A DNA stretch of 45,609 nucleotides, from assembly GCA_003565295.1 (NCBI GenBank), contig PXCO01000302.1, positions 1-45,609 of the forward strand. The letters run 5' to 3'. The notes below the pieces were generated by a model, which ran no database searches, was not told the DNA's origin, and saw only the letters and a program-made list of their open reading frames with translations. The translations under genes were made by a program, and so were the position numbers. This document shows, piece by piece, positions 1 to 42,769 of the stretch. How positions within the stretch are numbered: position 1 is the first letter of the stretch; each line of letters opens with the position of its first letter. This DNA comes from Cyclobacteriaceae bacterium (lineage in GTDB: Bacteria; Bacteroidota; Bacteroidia; Cytophagales; Cyclobacteriaceae).

Positions 1-74
1 GACCTGCGGTACGGGGCAAGTTCCCGAAACAAGTTCGGGACAGGTAATGACCGCTGAAAAGAAATTATAAACAC
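1..74 (+). repeat. Start-abutting repeat, locus A, partial unit A0
   Basis: This is the 3' part of a repeat unit cut by the window edge. It holds the CCTGCGGTACGGGGCA hairpin half, the stem CCCGAA-ACAAG-TTCGGG, and the conserved tail GACCGCTGAAAAG followed by AAATTATAAACAC. The next unit starts directly after it at an ATGAAATCGAGC. The same elements recur at 24361-24692, 33543-33732, 35068-35187, 40461-40624 and 42770-42915. No gene is seen here. Confidence 0.8.
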
Positions 75-270
75 ATGAAATCGAGCCTGTCCTGACGGCA
101 GTCAGGGCATGACGCTAGCGACGCACGGAGGGATGCCCCGATAGCTATCGGGGAGATGCGAGATTCTCCCGGAACAAGTCCGGGACAGGCTATCCCGACT
201 TACAGTGCGGGACAAGTTCCCGAAACAAGTTCGGGACAGGTAATGACCGCTAAAAAGAAAATATAAACAC
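75..270 (+). repeat. Start-abutting repeat, locus A, full unit A1 (196 bp)
   Basis: The unit starts ATGAAATCGAGC and carries in order the hairpin CCTGAC-GGCA-GTCAGG, the palindrome CCCGATAGCTATCGGG, the GATGCGAGATTCTCCC block, a CCCG...CGGG stem, the stem CCCGAA-ACAAG-TTCGGG and the tail GACCGCTAAAAAG...ATATAAACAC. Its length equals that of unit B1 at 24361-24556. Its opening ATG runs only a few codons before TGA, so it is not a gene start. It is followed at once by another unit beginning ATGAAATCGAGC. Confidence 0.85.
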
Positions 271-359
271 ATGAAATCGAGCATGAGGAGAACCTCACAC
301 AGAGGGATGATTATCAAAGAGAGATTCCATCTGACCGCTGAAAAACAAATTATAAACAG
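271..359 (+). repeat. Start-abutting repeat, locus A, short unit A2 ending at a start codon
   Basis: This 89-bp unit starts ATGAAATCGAGC, has the hairpin TGAGG-AGAA-CCTCA and the GGGATGATTATCAAAG block, lacks the central palindromes, and ends GACCGCTGAAAAAC + AAATTATAAACAG directly against the ATG of the epimerase at 360. The last part, with the first seven coding bases ATGAAAG, is identical to the tail in front of the unrelated dehydrogenase at 24693. It probably acts as the leader and translation start region of the epimerase; that is inference. Confidence 0.85.
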
Positions 360-1409
360 ATGAAAGTTTTAATTACAGGAACTGCTGGATTTATTGGTAT
401 GCACCTTGCTGAGAGGTTGCTGGAAAGAGGAGATGAAGTAGTCGGACTTGACAATATTAATGACTATTATGAAGTTGGGCTTAAAATGGCCCGATTGGAA
501 AAGACCGGAATTAAAAAAAGTAAAATTCATCCCGGCAGGATAATTGGTAGTGAAAAGTATCCCAATTATAAATTCGTACAACTTGACTTGGAGGATAAGG
601 ATGCCTTAATGGCGCTTTTTAAATCCGAGGAATTCGATATGGTGATCAATTTAGCTGCCCAGGCGGGAGTACGTTATTCATTGACAAACCCCGATGCCTA
701 TATTCAGGCAAATATTGTGGGGTTTATTCATGTTTTAGAAGCATGTAGGCACCATAATATCAAACATTTAGTGTATGCATCTTCCAGTTCTGTATATGGG
801 TCTAATGTGAAAATGCCCTTTTCAACCAGTGATTCAGTGGATCACCCCGTCTCTTTGTATGCGGCTTCGAAAAAATCCAATGAGTTGATGGCACATACGT
901 ACAGTCACCTCTTTGGATTACCCACGACGGGGTTGAGGTTTTTCACTGTCTATGGTACTTGGGGCAGGCCGGATATGGCATTGTTTTTATTTACCAAGGC
1001 CATAAAGGAGAACAAGCCTATTGATGTGTTTAATTTCGGAGAAATGAAAAGGGATTTTACTTACATTGACGATATCATAGAGGGGGTGATCAGGGTGGTG
1101 GATAACCCGCCCGTGCCAAACCCTGATTTGGATTTGTCTTTGAGTGACCCGAGCAAATCTAAAGCCCCATACAAAGTTTACAATATCGGAAATTCGGCTC
1201 CGGTAAAATTGATGGATTTTATTGAGGCAATTGAAAACGCATTGGGTAAAAAAGCCGTTAAAAACCTTATGGAAATTCAACCAGGAGACGTGCCGGCTAC
1301 CCATGCGGATACCCAACCATTAGAAACAGAACTTGGGTACAAGCCAAACACCTCGGTTGAATATGGGGTCAATCGTTTTATTGAATGGTACAACAACTAT
1401 TACCACTGA
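360..1409 (+). CDS. NAD-dependent epimerase, UDP-glucuronate 4-epimerase type
   Basis: A 349-residue short-chain dehydrogenase/reductase of the extended class. It probably epimerises a UDP-sugar (UDP-glucuronate to UDP-galacturonate) for surface polysaccharide in the cytoplasm. Visible signs are the NAD-binding GTAGFIG at residues 7-13, the SSSS catalytic strand near 141-144, and Tyr167/Lys171 of the YxxxK motif. Length and the [15 protein letters not shown] region fit CapI-like enzymes; the exact sugar cannot be read from sequence. The glycosyl-phosphate transferase at 1507 follows on the same strand and fits the same pathway. The start codon abuts repeat unit A2, with no separate Shine-Dalgarno sequence visible. 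Confidence 0.9.
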
Positions 1410-24253: not shown

Positions 24254-24360
24254 AGGTTTAATTTGGAACATTTTAATTCAAGTTTCATAAATAGCTAAAT
24301 TCAGCCTTTTTTCCTAAATTAAACAAGTATTAAAGTCAGCCCAATAAAAACCGGAATTGG

Positions 24361-24556
24361 ATGAAATCGCACATGAAGAGAACGTCACACGGAGGGATAG
24401 CTATCGGGGAGATGCGAGATTCTCCCGTGAATTCGGGACAGGCTCCCGAAGCAAATTCCCCGAAACGAGTTCCCCGAAACGAGTTCGGGGCAGGCAGGGG
24501 CAGGCTATCCCGAAGATCGGGACAAGTTGTGGCAAATAAAAATCAATTATAAACAC
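24361..24556 (+). repeat. Start-abutting repeat, locus B, full unit B1 (196 bp)
   Basis: The unit starts ATGAAATCGCAC and continues with the TGAAG-AGAA-CGTCA hairpin (one mismatch), GGGATAGCTATCGGGG, GATGCGAGATTCTCCC, several CCCCGAAACGAGTTCGGGG stems, CTATCCCGAAGATCGGGACAAG and a tail ending CAATTATAAACAC. It has the same length as unit A1 (75-270) although the internal modules differ. Unit B2 follows with no gap. The 89 bp upstream (24272-24360) hold nothing obvious apart from the probable promoter of the minus-strand dehydrogenase. Confidence 0.85.
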
Positions 24557-24692
24557 ATGAAATCGAGCCTGTCCTGACGGCAGTCAGGGCATGAGGAGAA
24601 CCTCACATAGAGGGATGATTATCAAAGCGAGATTCCACCCCGACCTGCGGTACGGGGCAGGTTATGACCGCTGAAAAACAAATTATAAACAG
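24557..24692 (+). repeat. Start-abutting repeat, locus B, unit B2 ending at a start codon
   Basis: This 136-bp unit starts ATGAAATCGAGC and has the hairpins CCTGAC-GGCA-GTCAGG and TGAGG-AGAA-CCTCA, the GGGATGATTATCAAAG block and the stem CCCCG-ACC-TGC-GGT-A-CGGGG. It ends GACCGCTGAAAAAC + AAATTATAAACAG against the ATG of the dehydrogenase. The tail plus ATGAAAG is identical to that before the epimerase at 360. Confidence 0.85.
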
Positions 24693-25919
24693 ATGAAAGA
24701 ACTACTGAAAAAATTTGAAAACAAACAAGCCGAAATTGTTTTTGAATGGAGCGATAGTGAATCCGAAGCCGAAGGTTGGCTGGTCATCAATTCCATGCGG
24801 GGCGGAGCCGCAGGGGGTGGCATACGCATGAAAAAAGGTCTTGACAAAAGAGATGTGATTGAGCTCGCCAAAACCCAGGAGGTGAAGTTTACCGTTTCAG
24901 GTCCCCCAGTTGGAGGCGCAAAAGCAGGCATCAACTTTGATCCCGAAGATCCAAGAAAAGAGGAGGTGTTAAAGCGTTGGTTTGCCGTAACTATGCCATT
25001 AATGAAAGGCTATTTTGGGGTAATGGGTGACCTTAATATAAATGAAGTTTCGGAAATCATCCCAATGACCGAAGGATTTGGACTTTGGCACCCCCAAGAG
25101 GGAATAGTAAATGCCCATTACAAAGCATCAGAACCGGAAAAAATCCGAAAGATTGGCCAGTTAAGGCAAGGGGTTTCCAAAATTCTGGAGAACCCTGAAT
25201 ATGTACCTGAAGGCTCCAATAAATATAGGGTTTCGGATATGATCACCGGATATGGCATCGCATCATCTGTACAACATTATTACAAACTTTGGGGCGGAAA
25301 CCTAAAAGGTAAAAAAGCCATCATCCAAGGATGGGGGAACGTGGGCGCATCTGCGGCTTGCTTCCTGGCTTTGCATGGGGTGGAAATTGTGGGCATCATT
25401 TCATTGGAAGGGGGGTTAATCAACGATAAAGGGTTTGATCTGGATGAAATCAAAAAACTTTTCGTCAATAAAGACAATAATAAACTGGTAGCTAAAAACC
25501 TGCTCAGCTTTGAAGATGCCAACGAGCGGATTTGGGACGTGGGAGCAGAAATTTTCGTTCCGGCGGCCCGGTCCAGGTTGGTGACCAAGGAGCAAATCAG
25601 CAGAATGAAAAAAAAGGGATTGGAACTGATCACCTGTGGTGCCAATATCCCTTTTGCAGAAGATGACATATTCCTGGGCCCCATAGGCATTTTTGCGGAC
25701 AACTCGGTTTCAGTTATCCCTGACTTCATTTCAAATACAGGACTTTCCAGGGTATTTGCCTATTTAATGACCGATAAAGCACTACTCACAGATGAGGCTA
25801 TTTTTGAAGATGTAAGTAAGGCCATTCAAACCGCCTTGAAAAAGACCCATCAGATAAATCCGGAAAAAACAAAAATTGCTCAGGTTTCATTGGAAATCGC
25901 ACTTAAGCAACTTCTTTGA
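24693..25919 (+). CDS. Glu/Leu/Phe/Val dehydrogenase family protein, divergent
   Basis: A 408-residue amino-acid dehydrogenase-type enzyme: N-terminal dimerisation domain (GGAAGGGIRMKKG, GPPVGGAKAGI with the conserved Lys), then a Rossmann domain (KKAIIQGWGNVGASAA). It would interconvert an amino acid and its 2-oxo acid plus ammonium with NAD(P). It is divergent: the usual PDVGTNE near the catalytic Asp appears as GDLNINE, so Asp seems kept but its surroundings differ, and substrate identity (glutamate or another amino acid) is unsure. The start codon abuts repeat unit B2. A large hairpin follows the stop. Confidence 0.82.
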   Translation: MKELLKKFENKQAEIVFEWSDSESEAEGWLVINSMRGGAAGGGIRMKKGLDKRDVIELAKTQEVKFTVSGPPVGGAKAGINFDPEDPRKEEVLKRWFAVTMPLMKGYFGVMGDLNINEVSEIIPMTEGFGLWHPQEGIVNAHYKASEPEKIRKIGQLRQGVSKILENPEYVPEGSNKYRVSDMITGYGIASSVQHYYKLWGGNLKGKKAIIQGWGNVGASAACFLALHGVEIVGIISLEGGLINDKGFDLDEIKKLFVNKDNNKLVAKNLLSFEDANERIWDVGAEIFVPAARSRLVTKEQISRMKKKGLELITCGANIPFAEDDIFLGPIGIFADNSVSVIPDFISNTGLSRVFAYLMTDKALLTDEAIFEDVSKAIQTALKKTHQINPEKTKIAQVSLEIALKQLL

Positions 25920-33735: not shown

Positions 33736-35067
33736 CTAAGGTTTATCAAACGTGAACAATCCCGCATTCAGACTTTTCAAAACCTCTGTTTTATATTTTG
33801 CCTCTACCAGCACTGACACATTATGACGGCTTCCACCATAAGAAACCATTCGTAATGGATACGCCTCTAAGCATTCCAGTACCTGTTGAAACACTCCTTT
33901 TTGATCCCTGATAGAATCCCCAACGATGCAAATGATGGACATGTTATGATCTACCTCTACCAGCCCAAACTGTTCTAACTCATTGTTGATAGACTTAAGG
34001 TAGGTGAGGTCATCTATGGTAAGGGAAATGGCCACTTCAGAAGTGGTGATCATATCTATGGAGGTCTGGTATTTTTCGAAGATCTCAAAAACCTTTCTTA
34101 AAAATCCGTAAGCCAACAACATCCTGCTGGATTTGATTTTTATGGCCGTGATTCCATCCTTGGCCGCAATTGCCTTGACGCCCCCAGATTCTTCTGCCGA
34201 GGAGGTAATCGTTGTTCCATTGGCATCGGGATCCATCGTGTTCAAAAGCTTCACCGGAATATTGTGCAATTGGGCAGGCCAAATGGAGGCAGGGTGTAGG
34301 ATTTTAGCACCAAAATAGGCAAGTTCGGCCGCTTCATCAAAGGAAAGCCTGGCAATGGGCTTGGTTTGGTCCACAATGCGGGGATCATTATTATGCATGC
34401 CATCTATATCTGTCCATATCTCCACCACGGATGCAGATATAGCCGCTCCTATCAGGGAAGCGGTATAGTCAGATCCCCCTCTTTTCAGGTTGTCTACCTC
34501 ATTTCTATGATTCTTGCAAATATAGCCTTGAGTAATAAAAACAGTATCCTCCTTATATCTGGAAAGGATGGATTCCAGTCTTTCCCTGATTTTCTGAAGC
34601 TCAGGCTCATGGTTTTCATCGATGCTCATGAACTCCAATGCAGGTAGAAAGACCGCTTTGATTCCCAATTCTTCCAAAAGGGTATAGAAAAGCTTGGTAG
34701 AAAGTAATTCTCCCTGGGCTAAAATATCCTTATTAATGGCCTCATTAAAGGATATTTTGAGAATAATGTTCAAAAACTCAAAATGTTCCTCAATAATTTT
34801 GGAGGACCTGTTTTTACCATTGAAGGATTCAAGCAATTCCTCACAAAATGCTTTATAATGATTCTTAAGGTCGTCAATTCTAGATTTTGCGTCGTCTTTT
34901 TTGCCGGCTGCCAACGCCTCCCCAATTTTCACCAATTCATTGGTGGTTCCAGAAAGTGCCGATAGCACCACTATCGTTTTTTCATCACTTCTGGTTATTA
35001 GGTCCTTTACCTGATGCATTCGCTCGGGCCTTCCTACTGAAGTCCCTCCAAATTTCATTACCTTCAT
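33736..35067 (-). CDS. lysC: Aspartate kinase
   Basis: A 443-residue monofunctional aspartokinase that phosphorylates aspartate at the head of the lysine, threonine and methionine pathways. Marks: KFGGTSVG at residues 5-12, LGGSDYTASL-like RGGSDYTASLIGA, TDIDGMHNNDPR, and AAELAYFGAKILHP. Two C-terminal ACT domains (about 300-440) suggest feedback control by lysine or threonine. The start codon abuts repeat unit D, with the sequence ATTATAATCAT directly before ATG. It lies downstream of ribH on the same strand, an unrelated pathway. Confidence 0.94.
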   Translation of the reverse strand: MKVMKFGGTSVGRPERMHQVKDLITRSDEKTIVVLSALSGTTNELVKIGEALAAGKKDDAKSRIDDLKNHYKAFCEELLESFNGKNRSSKIIEEHFEFLNIILKISFNEAINKDILAQGELLSTKLFYTLLEELGIKAVFLPALEFMSIDENHEPELQKIRERLESILSRYKEDTVFITQGYICKNHRNEVDNLKRGGSDYTASLIGAAISASVVEIWTDIDGMHNNDPRIVDQTKPIARLSFDEAAELAYFGAKILHPASIWPAQLHNIPVKLLNTMDPDANGTTITSSAEESGGVKAIAAKDGITAIKIKSSRMLLAYGFLRKVFEIFEKYQTSIDMITTSEVAISLTIDDLTYLKSINNELEQFGLVEVDHNMSIICIVGDSIRDQKGVFQQVLECLEAYPLRMVSYGGSRHNVSVLVEAKYKTEVLKSLNAGLFTFDKP

Positions 35068-35187
35068 ATGATTATAATTTGCTTTTCATAGGCCATAACT
35101 TGTCCCGTACCGAAGGTCGGGATAGCCTGCCCCGTGTGTGACGTGCTCGTCATGCCCTGACTGCCGTCAGGACAGGCTCAATTTCAT
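35068..35187 (-). repeat. Start-abutting repeat, locus D, ending at the lysC start
   Basis: On the minus strand this 120-bp unit starts ATGAAATTGAGC and carries CCTGAC-GGCA-GTCAGG, the hairpin TGACG-AGCA-CGTCA, GGGGCAGGC, and the stem TCCCG-ACC-TTC-GGT-A-CGGGA. It ends TATGAAAAGC + AAATTATAATCAT directly against ATG 35067. Its hairpin stems differ from those of loci A, B and E by paired changes. Confidence 0.85.
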
Positions 35188-39563: not shown

Positions 39564-40460
39564 TCACCAAAGTTTTTCTGGATATTTCCCGGCACTGTGC
39601 AGTTCCTTCAACGCACCTATCACCGTGGCCTTATCCTCCGCATAGGTGACACCAAACCAAACCTTTCCTCCTTTCAGGATTTTGACCTTTGCCTTTCCCG
39701 ATTCAATTAGCTCGTTGGCCACCGAGGGTATATAGAACTCAGACTTCAGATCCATGCCCTGCCGCTTTAGAAATTCCTCCCACATTTGTTGGGTTTCCTG
39801 GAATACTGAAGGGTGAAAGCCCCAGCAATTCATGGAAACCGGGGTATTTTCAGGAATTTCAACCTTTTCATCACCAGCTTCGTGGACAATGTCCCCATTT
39901 CTCCTGCCGATGGAAGTCCTTTCTTTCATCCCTGTGAGATGGCCGCTACTGTCGGCCATACATACTCCCCTACTCACTGTGCCATGAGAGCTGAGCACAT
40001 CCTGAATGGCATACCCCACCATGCAATGGAGATCTTTCTTCACTTCCCGGGAGAGAAAACCGGCAAGGGCTTCAAATGCTTCCCTTCCATAAAAATCGTC
40101 CGCATTGATCACGGCAAAAGGCTCGTTGATCACTTCTTTCGCACAAAGCAGGGCATGGGCGGTGCCAAAGGGTTTTACACGCTCCGGGTTTTTATAGGAA
40201 TCAGGCACCAAGGATCCCAAAGTCTGAACCACAAACTCCACCTCCGTCTTTCCTTCTAGTTTTGGCAAAAAAAGTTCTTTGGCCATTTCCAGTATTTCCT
40301 CTCTTACGATAAAGACCACCTTGCCAAAGCCTGCTTTCAATGCATCATAGATACTGTATTCCAAAATAGTCTCCCCGTTGGGGCCAAAGCCATCCACTTG
40401 CTTGTCCCCTCCATACCTACTGCCCATTCCGGCAGCCAAAATCAATAATGTTGGTTTCAT
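39564..40460 (-). CDS. Sugar-phosphate nucleotidyltransferase
   Basis: A 298-residue GT-A-like nucleotidyltransferase that makes an NDP-sugar from NTP and a sugar-1-phosphate. The nucleotide loop LLILAAGMGSRYGGDKQ stands at the N-terminus. NADDFYG (about 119-125) holds the metal-binding acidic residues, and WFGVTYAEDKA is near the end. GalU-like or RmlA-like activity is possible; the substrate cannot be assigned. A role in surface polysaccharide, like the epimerase at 360 which also sits behind this repeat, is possible but unproven. The start codon abuts repeat unit E. Confidence 0.82.
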   Translation of the reverse strand: MKPTLLILAAGMGSRYGGDKQVDGFGPNGETILEYSIYDALKAGFGKVVFIVREEILEMAKELFLPKLEGKTEVEFVVQTLGSLVPDSYKNPERVKPFGTAHALLCAKEVINEPFAVINADDFYGREAFEALAGFLSREVKKDLHCMVGYAIQDVLSSHGTVSRGVCMADSSGHLTGMKERTSIGRRNGDIVHEAGDEKVEIPENTPVSMNCWGFHPSVFQETQQMWEEFLKRQGMDLKSEFYIPSVANELIESGKAKVKILKGGKVWFGVTYAEDKATVIGALKELHSAGKYPEKLW

Positions 40461-40624
40461 ATGATTATAATTGTCTTTTCAAAGGCCATAACTTGTACCC
40501 CACCGAAGGTTGGGGTAGCCTGCCCCGTCCCGGTAGCTATCGGGATCGGGGAAATCGTTTCGGGGAAGCTCGCATGGTTGATAATCATTCCACTGTGTGA
40601 CATTTTCGTCATGCTCGATTTCAT
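40461..40624 (-). repeat. Start-abutting repeat, locus E, ending at the nucleotidyltransferase start
   Basis: On the minus strand this 164-bp unit starts ATGAAATCGAGC and has TGACG-AAAA-TGTCA, GGAATGATTATCAACC, ATGCGAGCTTCCCCG, CCCGATAGCTACCGGG and the stem TACCCC-A-ACC-TTC-GGT-GGGGTA. It ends TTTGAAAAGACAATTATAA + TCAT directly before ATG 40460. Confidence 0.85.
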
Positions 40625-42704: not shown

Positions 42705-42769
42705 GCTATACGTTAATGGAACCCCACATTGAATTTTATTGGGGATACTGCCAAGTGCTATACTTTCAT

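Follow-up and report, generated by a model that had tools for sequence, protein, structure and literature searches.

Why should copies of one short repeat end exactly where unrelated genes begin? The question is raised by a contig of a Cyclobacteriaceae genome (G000; 5.62 Mb in 403 contigs), for which an earlier note had described repeat tails running into four start codons and had proposed a mobile leader cassette, always directed to gene starts and possibly joined to them at ATGAAA. The window, meaning the whole stretch of 45,609 nucleotides analysed here, is contig 353 of this genome. From the analysis described below we conclude, with a probability of roughly two in three, that the repeat is a non-autonomous mobile element with a folded core of about 88 nt, often enlarged by modules, which inserts 3' of ATGAA, ends with an ATGAA of its own and would be moved in trans by a Y1 enzyme with the help of an internal guide.

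Repeat arrays in the window and in the genome

The window sequence confirmed the four exact junctions between tail and ATG, at 360 and 24693 on the forward strand and at 35067 and 40460 on the reverse strand, with tails ...AAATTATAAACAG or ...AATTATAATCAT running straight into the ATG of the gene. Array A (1–359, forward strand), whose left part is cut by the window start, consists of the end of a unit up to 74, a unit at 75–270 and a simple core unit at 271–359, and the ATGAA at 360–364, which we read as the element's own end, is also the start of an NAD-dependent epimerase gene (360–1409, forward strand). Two units (24361–24556 and 24557–24692), both enlarged by GC-rich palindromic modules, make up array B (24361–24692, forward strand), and the ATGAA at its end (24693–24697) opens a Glu/Leu/Phe/Val dehydrogenase gene (24693–25919, forward strand). 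On the reverse strand, the single unit of array C (35068–35187) starts a gene for an amino-acid kinase with an ACT domain, of the aspartate-kinase type (33736–35067), and in Pleomorphovibrio marinus this gene is preceded by a copy that differs from array C (120 vs 149 bases). Array D (40461–40624, reverse strand), again one unit, starts a nucleotidyl transferase gene (39564–40460, reverse strand; NTP_transferase) whose P. marinus orthologue represents an empty site. These four gene assignments come from Pfam, and the genes adjoining copies are unrelated to one another. The N-termini of the four proteins look like true starts. At three of them the orthologues from P. marinus and a further relative (G022) align from the same or the next residue, and for the epimerase gene no orthologue match was present in the compared stretches of these two genomes.

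The tails of array E (42797–42770) and of the degenerate array F (33571–33543), both on the reverse strand and both belonging to arrays whose left extent is not settled, end elsewhere. Array E is followed by a non-gene ATGAAA (ATGAAAGTATAG, at 42769) and array F by TTGAA, with a DUF6787 ORF (33514) beginning 28 bases further on. Thus four of the six arrays in the window end at a start codon, and the word 'always' in the earlier description does not hold for the other two. In array B and in other arrays the GC-rich palindromic modules sit inside the core at fixed places, namely after GAGC, GGGATG and GATTCC. In the copy at 271–359 the frame opened by the left ATG stops at a TGA overlapping the ATG of the gene, which would make translational coupling possible.

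The genome as a whole contains hundreds of copies. Searches with the tail plus ATGAA (up to two mismatches) gave 186 matches and searches with the head (up to one mismatch) 297, compared to 0 for each reversed control, and the association between tail and ATGAA is far beyond chance genome-wide. The only unbiased count of junctions comes from a head-anchored sample, in which the loci were chosen by the head alone, blind to the sequence after the tail. Here a tail was found for 86 of 114 heads, the remaining 28 being contig ends or degenerate or truncated copies as judged from ten that were inspected, and ATGAA stood directly 3' of the tail in 72 of the 81 tails with six following bases (tandem junctions counted in). 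The distances and orientations of the copies relative to start codons are thus not random, as the earlier note would have required for a refutation of its cassette.

Among array ends, 58 of 64 were ATGAA and six were not, in a collection that includes loci L001–L030, found with a pattern containing ATGAA. Of the 58 ATGAA-ended arrays, 39 open a frame that reaches 60 codons or runs off the locus and the other 19 do not, e.g. at ATGAAATAG or ATGAATTAA; start calls are approximate in this count, and contig ends truncate some of the sites. As a background, 39 of 117 ATGAA outside coding cores (115.6 kb) look like starts. Starts are therefore over-represented among insertions (39/58 vs 39/117, odds ratio 4.1, Fisher p 2.5e-5), being about twice as common there as among the available ATGAA. 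In alignment A3, with 51 matches from 45 loci, 34 right ends are followed by a reading frame of 60 codons or longer, which begins with ATGAA in 33 cases and with ATGAG in one, nine run into another element (five by script, four by eye) and eight do neither. The left 5-mer is ATGAA in 44 and the right 5-mer in 48 of these matches.

Among the matches listed, several contigs, such as C98, C102, C132, C168, C324 and C370, start within about 120 bases of a copy, and the repeats probably break the assembly of this genome. One locus (L114 7175–7222, contig C165 of G000) shows two facing heads without tails around one short hairpin, a palindromic remnant.

Empty and filled sites

In P. marinus (G001), the only genome of the same genus in the sample of relatives, 18 sites of the own genome could be aligned on both flanks, and nine of them are empty and nine filled there, with L122 counted as filled since P. 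marinus has a degenerate copy of 216 bases at this position. The gap at the empty sites is exactly zero at L103, L125, L050 and L128, lies within 2 bases at L087 and L099 and amounts to 9, 10 and 71 at L048, L112 and L127. Seven of the nine begin with ATGAA, L048 has ATGGA and L112 is unaligned at its start. Empty sites carry one ATGAA and filled sites carry ATGAA at both ends. At L125, for example, the own sequence ...cacttacacatg^ATGAAATCGAGC...aacag^ATGAAATGGATT corresponds to ...catttacacatg^ATGAAATGGATT in P. marinus, with 86% identity in the left and 78% in the right flank and nothing in between. The site at 40460 of the window is empty in P. marinus as well. The comparison with relatives that had been suggested thus yielded repeat-free orthologues with a single ATGAA, and these empty sites contradict the idea, already named as a possibility in the earlier note, that the sequences are purely ancestral leaders at the same genes. 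At sites filled in both species the lengths of the inserts differ (e.g. 134 vs 245 and 111 vs 286 bases), which argues that turnover is ongoing. The identity between own flanks and P. marinus is uneven, with some 150-base pieces at 95–99% and others at 73–83%; possible causes are a recent transfer, a mixed ancestry and contamination, for which a value of 4.39% is given.

Insertions were also found inside the coding sequence of RAYT-like genes of the relative G048, which are broken by the element. At site 1 the empty form CAGGAAATGCCC, seen in a G048 paralogue and in homologues from G109 and G019, becomes CAGGAA|ATCGAGC...CCCATGAA|ATGCCC when filled. At site 2 the empty form ACACATGAAAACC becomes ACACATGAA|ATCGAGC...CAGATTAA|AACC in two RAYT copies of G048 or, in a longer reading, ACACATGAAAACCATG from G019 becomes ACACATGAA|ATCGAGC...CAGATTAA|AACCATG. 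The element at site 2 carries the internal stretch TTCAATCTG instead of TTCCATCTG, matching its own end CAGATTAA, and the pair of TTCAATCTG and CAGATTAA also occurs at the same codon in a gene of G057. In both cases the left and the right 5-mers differ, and although this is a small test with few sites, it follows that the right 5-mer is not a plain copy of the target. The simplest reading of these sequences is an insertion 3' of the left 5-mer with a right end that would be carried by the element. The AGGAA site alone could go back to one later mutation, and the same-codon copies with the ATTAA end, present in three genes, may represent one inherited insertion or a favoured site. Broken RAYT-like genes are located at L280 and L271 (G048) and L221 (G057), and three genes are hit at the same codon.

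With these data the proposed mobile leader cassette stands as far as mobility and the supply of a leader and a start codon are concerned, but it is not confined to starts, as seen from the 19 of 58 array ends and from the insertions inside RAYT coding sequence. Likewise, ATGAA(A) indeed joins repeat and gene; the target, however, appears to be the 5-mer ATGAA, and the right copy the element's own end and not a duplicated gene start.

Fold, internal pairing and proposed mechanism

The simplest copies are 85–92 nt long, with a folded core of about 88 nt in which a single hairpin (P2), a single long stem (P1) and a single stretch resembling a guide were recognised. In the copy at 271–359 (forward strand) the left end at 271–282 comprises the target 5-mer ATGAA (271–275) and the 5' strand of P1, followed by P2 at 284–297 (TGAGG AGAA CCTCA), the guide-like stretch TTCCATCTG at 325–333, which is complementary to both junctions, and the right end CAGATGAA at 357–364 as its partner in stem P3. 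P2 covaries within the family (TGAGG/CCTCA, TGACG/CGTCA, TGAGAA/TTCTCA) and contains G-U pairs. In P3, which RNAalifold found unprompted, CATXTG pairs with CANATG across the right junction. The internal TTC(C)ATXTG is complementary to the left ATGAA as well as to the right CANATGAA, with X and N covarying: X:N is a Watson-Crick pair in 47 of 52 simple-core tails (C:G 27, A:T 11, G:C 9) and in 107 of 198 script-found tails, modules and stray matches included, vs a shuffled mean of 56. Many module-bearing copies have lost the X:N pairing, and GC-rich modules often disrupt P3. The left end ATGAAAY... also pairs with ...RTTCCAT: CAT lies fully opposite ATG in 25 of 39 matches, and at the seventh position 29 matches have a T:A pair and 6 a C:G pair. 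Judged from these sequences, the one internal stretch can pair with either junction but never with both at once.

The consensus structure was compared with shuffled alignments. In alignment A1 the paired fraction (95.8% vs 86.5%), the number of both-sided cells (25 vs 10.2) and the covariation score were above all 500 shuffles, and two of the five covariation measures did not exceed the shuffles (pairs with both-sided change, 462/500; further pair types, 496/500). Alignment A3 showed 92.4% paired cells and 84 both-sided changes vs 79.0% and 27.1 in shuffles, and sliding the structure reduced pairing to 22–43%; because the model had been used to fit A3, more weight belongs to A1. An Rfam scan of the array B region (24300–24800) gave no match at E <= 1.

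Two possible roles of the fold or of the sequence at the gene start were considered. Start-codon occlusion as the main role is disfavoured, since neither of two window copies, one folded both as RNA and as DNA and the other as DNA, shows it in its minimum-energy structure. A conserved upstream ORF was rejected as a family feature: the short-head cores open about 22–31 codons from the left ATG, whereas long heads mostly stop after 6 codons and a second subfamily after 4 (all by eye).

The precise junctions, the empty and filled sites, the differing right 5-mer, the covarying stems and the complementarity of both ends to one internal TTC(C)ATXTG are read directly from the sequences, and they suggest the following model. 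A Y1 HUH transposase would move the folded single strand in trans, and TTC(C)ATXTG would act as a guide, pairing with the target ATGAA during insertion and with the right end of the element during excision, as in IS200/IS605. Each terminal ATGAA would be a fresh target, and head-to-tail insertion into it would give the tandem arrays. When the element lands on a start ATGAA|N..., the native ATGAA would stay upstream together with the native leader and the terminal ATGAA of the element would take over as start with the frame kept, so that the gene would acquire a leader with structure and an A-rich tail, and the element would provide its start codon. Landings at starts would be tolerated because the element restores start codon and frame. 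We propose that this tolerance, and not the recognition of genes, accounts for the fixed orientation, for the distance of zero and for some of the excess of start codons; the orientation toward genes would accordingly be set by the target motif. Bare target choice does not explain the excess of starts over their availability.

The known systems nearest to the element include IS200/IS605 and its non-autonomous derivatives, the palindrome-associated transposable elements. HEARO and IscB-associated elements are structured and insert at ATGA; our element is far shorter and offers no room for a nuclease gene. It shares small size, high copy number and non-autonomy with MITEs of the DDE type, but no terminal inverted repeats, which are a feature of these MITEs, were seen by eye at its ends, and a target-site duplication is absent at the RAYT sites. 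According to the part of the IS200/IS605 literature drawn on here, IS608 inserts exactly 3' of TTAC, a motif that remains in the left flank, and internal guides base-pair with the cleavage sites of IS608 (PMC5934647). The same source describes several features in which the element is alike: insertion 3' of a short fixed motif retained in the left flank, a right end resembling the target, no target duplication, and a folded strand with fixed orientation (PMC5934647). Recognition of the ends by pairing with an internal stretch would be a further likeness, for which complementarity and covariation are the evidence in our element. The anatomy differs. IS200/IS605 are described in this part of the literature with left and right guides, each 5' of its own hairpin, and with pairing of 4 nt, whereas one guide-like stretch seems to serve both ends here, with pairing of up to 8 bp including a bulge. 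The fold of the element does not comprise two separate subterminal hairpins, one per end and each accompanied by a guide, and, unlike IS200/IS605, its approximately 88 nt have no tnpA within or beside them in the loci searched.

REP elements, as far as the source consulted in part describes them, are also high-copy small folded repeats, intergenic, in tandem and probably moved in trans, and subclass 2.6 of TnpAREP (RAYT) belongs to Bacteroidetes, with genes said to adjoin atypical structures that have copies elsewhere in the genome (PMC6006769). The precise 3' insertion and the ATGAA end borne by the element set it apart from REP. Moreover, no GTAG as in the REP-type foot is found among the invariant columns of a 20-copy alignment, and 20 loci from a RAYT query contained no copies beside a cognate tnpAREP, the REPtron arrangement, except inside broken RAYT genes. 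The assignment of the RAYT-like genes to subclass 2.6 rests on a resemblance of motifs read by eye. The element thus resembles IS200/IS605 and REP systems in the way it seems to work but lacks in its anatomy some defining features of each. Because of the one shared guide, the missing hairpin-plus-guide at each end, the missing GTAG and linked gene and the rebuilt start codon, we set it apart as a variant. No description of such an element was found in the literature (open-licence papers).

Could the copies instead be structured cis-regulatory leaders, kept at starts because their fold, in which P3 pairs the start codon, governs how transcripts are translated or how stable they are, with mobility as a secondary matter? 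The covarying stems that include the start codon and the over-representation of starts relative to available ATGAA agree with this. However, the same junction occurs at non-gene ATGAA (19/58) and within coding sequence, the adjoining genes are unrelated, and the RNA minimum-energy fold of the copy at 271–359 leaves the AUG unpaired with the guide-like stretch (z -1.13), making this explanation unlikely. We regard mobility at the RNA level as still less probable, with a folded transcript, intron-like or reverse-transcribed, and not single-stranded DNA as the moving form. This would agree with the covarying fold and its G-U pairs in P2, with the A-rich 3' tail and with the constant orientation, but insertion 3' of a short motif pairing with an internal guide is the way of IS200/IS605, as described in the part of that literature considered here. 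The copy at 271–359 also folds more significantly as DNA (z -2.47) than as RNA, and a unit of array B gives z -3.34 as DNA, which is weak evidence either way.

That ATGAA flanks most copies on both sides would also be expected if they were classical MITEs, moved by a DDE transposase that duplicates ATGAA as a fixed 5-bp target. The 5-mers at the RAYT sites, however, contradict a fixed duplication, as they differ and the right one follows the guide-like stretch (TTCAATCTG with CAGATTAA), and by eye the two ends do not form an inverted repeat (ATCGAGCATGA vs ...TTATAAACAN), so that this explanation is highly improbable. Hardly any weight is left for explanations that do without transposition, by leaders of ancestral origin or by simple recombination among the repeats. 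In their favour, nine of the 18 compared sites are filled in both species, each with inserts of different length, and recombination may be a source of copy-number change within arrays. Yet recombination between repeats does not seed new sites, and sites that are cleanly empty between uninterrupted flanks, L125 among them, as well as insertions inside RAYT genes whose homologues are intact, speak against these explanations.

Distribution and search for the mover

A covariance model built from copies of G000, P. marinus and some relatives detected the element (E <= 1e-4) in 51 of 118 sampled Cyclobacteriaceae genomes and in 40 of 84 genera; as no more than 36 candidates were scored per genome, with strict filters, copy numbers are lower bounds and absences soft. 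In a sample across the order, 13 of 194 genomes were positive (E <= 1e-6), three of them outside Cyclobacteriaceae. The element is a natural case of mobile DNA that gives many unrelated genes new 5' ends while leaving them unbroken, and the many pairs of filled and empty starts, in about 40 genera, are material for asking what leaders do in bacteria that make little use of Shine-Dalgarno signals. A shared guide, if real, would amount to DNA-guided insertion in a smaller form than in IS608. As a tentative extension, to which we give somewhat less than even odds, these repeats may form a minimal single-guide class of mobile DNA in Bacteroidota, in which one internal stretch pairs first with the target and then with the element's own end. 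With ATGAA as its target, this class would have replaced the leaders and starts of many genes in each genome again and again, as a translation-start cassette that disperses, and its mover would be an enzyme not yet linked to such repeats.

In line with the earlier note, which had seen no transposase, none is linked in the loci searched, and movement would thus be in trans. A search for a linked Y1 gene in the own genome, in P. marinus and G022 and in 12 element-rich genomes gave none that the element flanks, and 43 loci from Y1_Tnp searches contain neither such a gene nor an autonomous partner with the same ends and tnpA. Confident element matches in these 43 loci are limited to two pieces, which lie about 1 kb away from a single broken Y1 gene (L195); all others have E values of 0.9 or more. 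The 20 RAYT-query loci, from 12 genomes, gave only three element matches, all inside broken RAYT genes, and the RAYT-like genes examined adjoin other palindromes and not this element. P. marinus, although rich in the element, has no RAYT-like match, and the own genome has fragments only.

A Y1 (HUH) enzyme acting in trans is nevertheless the favoured candidate for the mover. As indirect support, a Y1_Tnp match is present in 49 of 51 genomes with the element vs 46 of 67 without it (not corrected for kinship), and a strong Y1 hit in all 15 genomes with at least eight element matches vs 33 of the 67 element-free ones (Fisher p 2.2e-4, hand-counted). G004 and G010 have the element without a Y1 match. 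In the own genome, an intact Y1 gene (L130 3700–5350, contig C161 of G000) lies amid different repeated palindromes, and contig C195 carries a broken Y1 gene.
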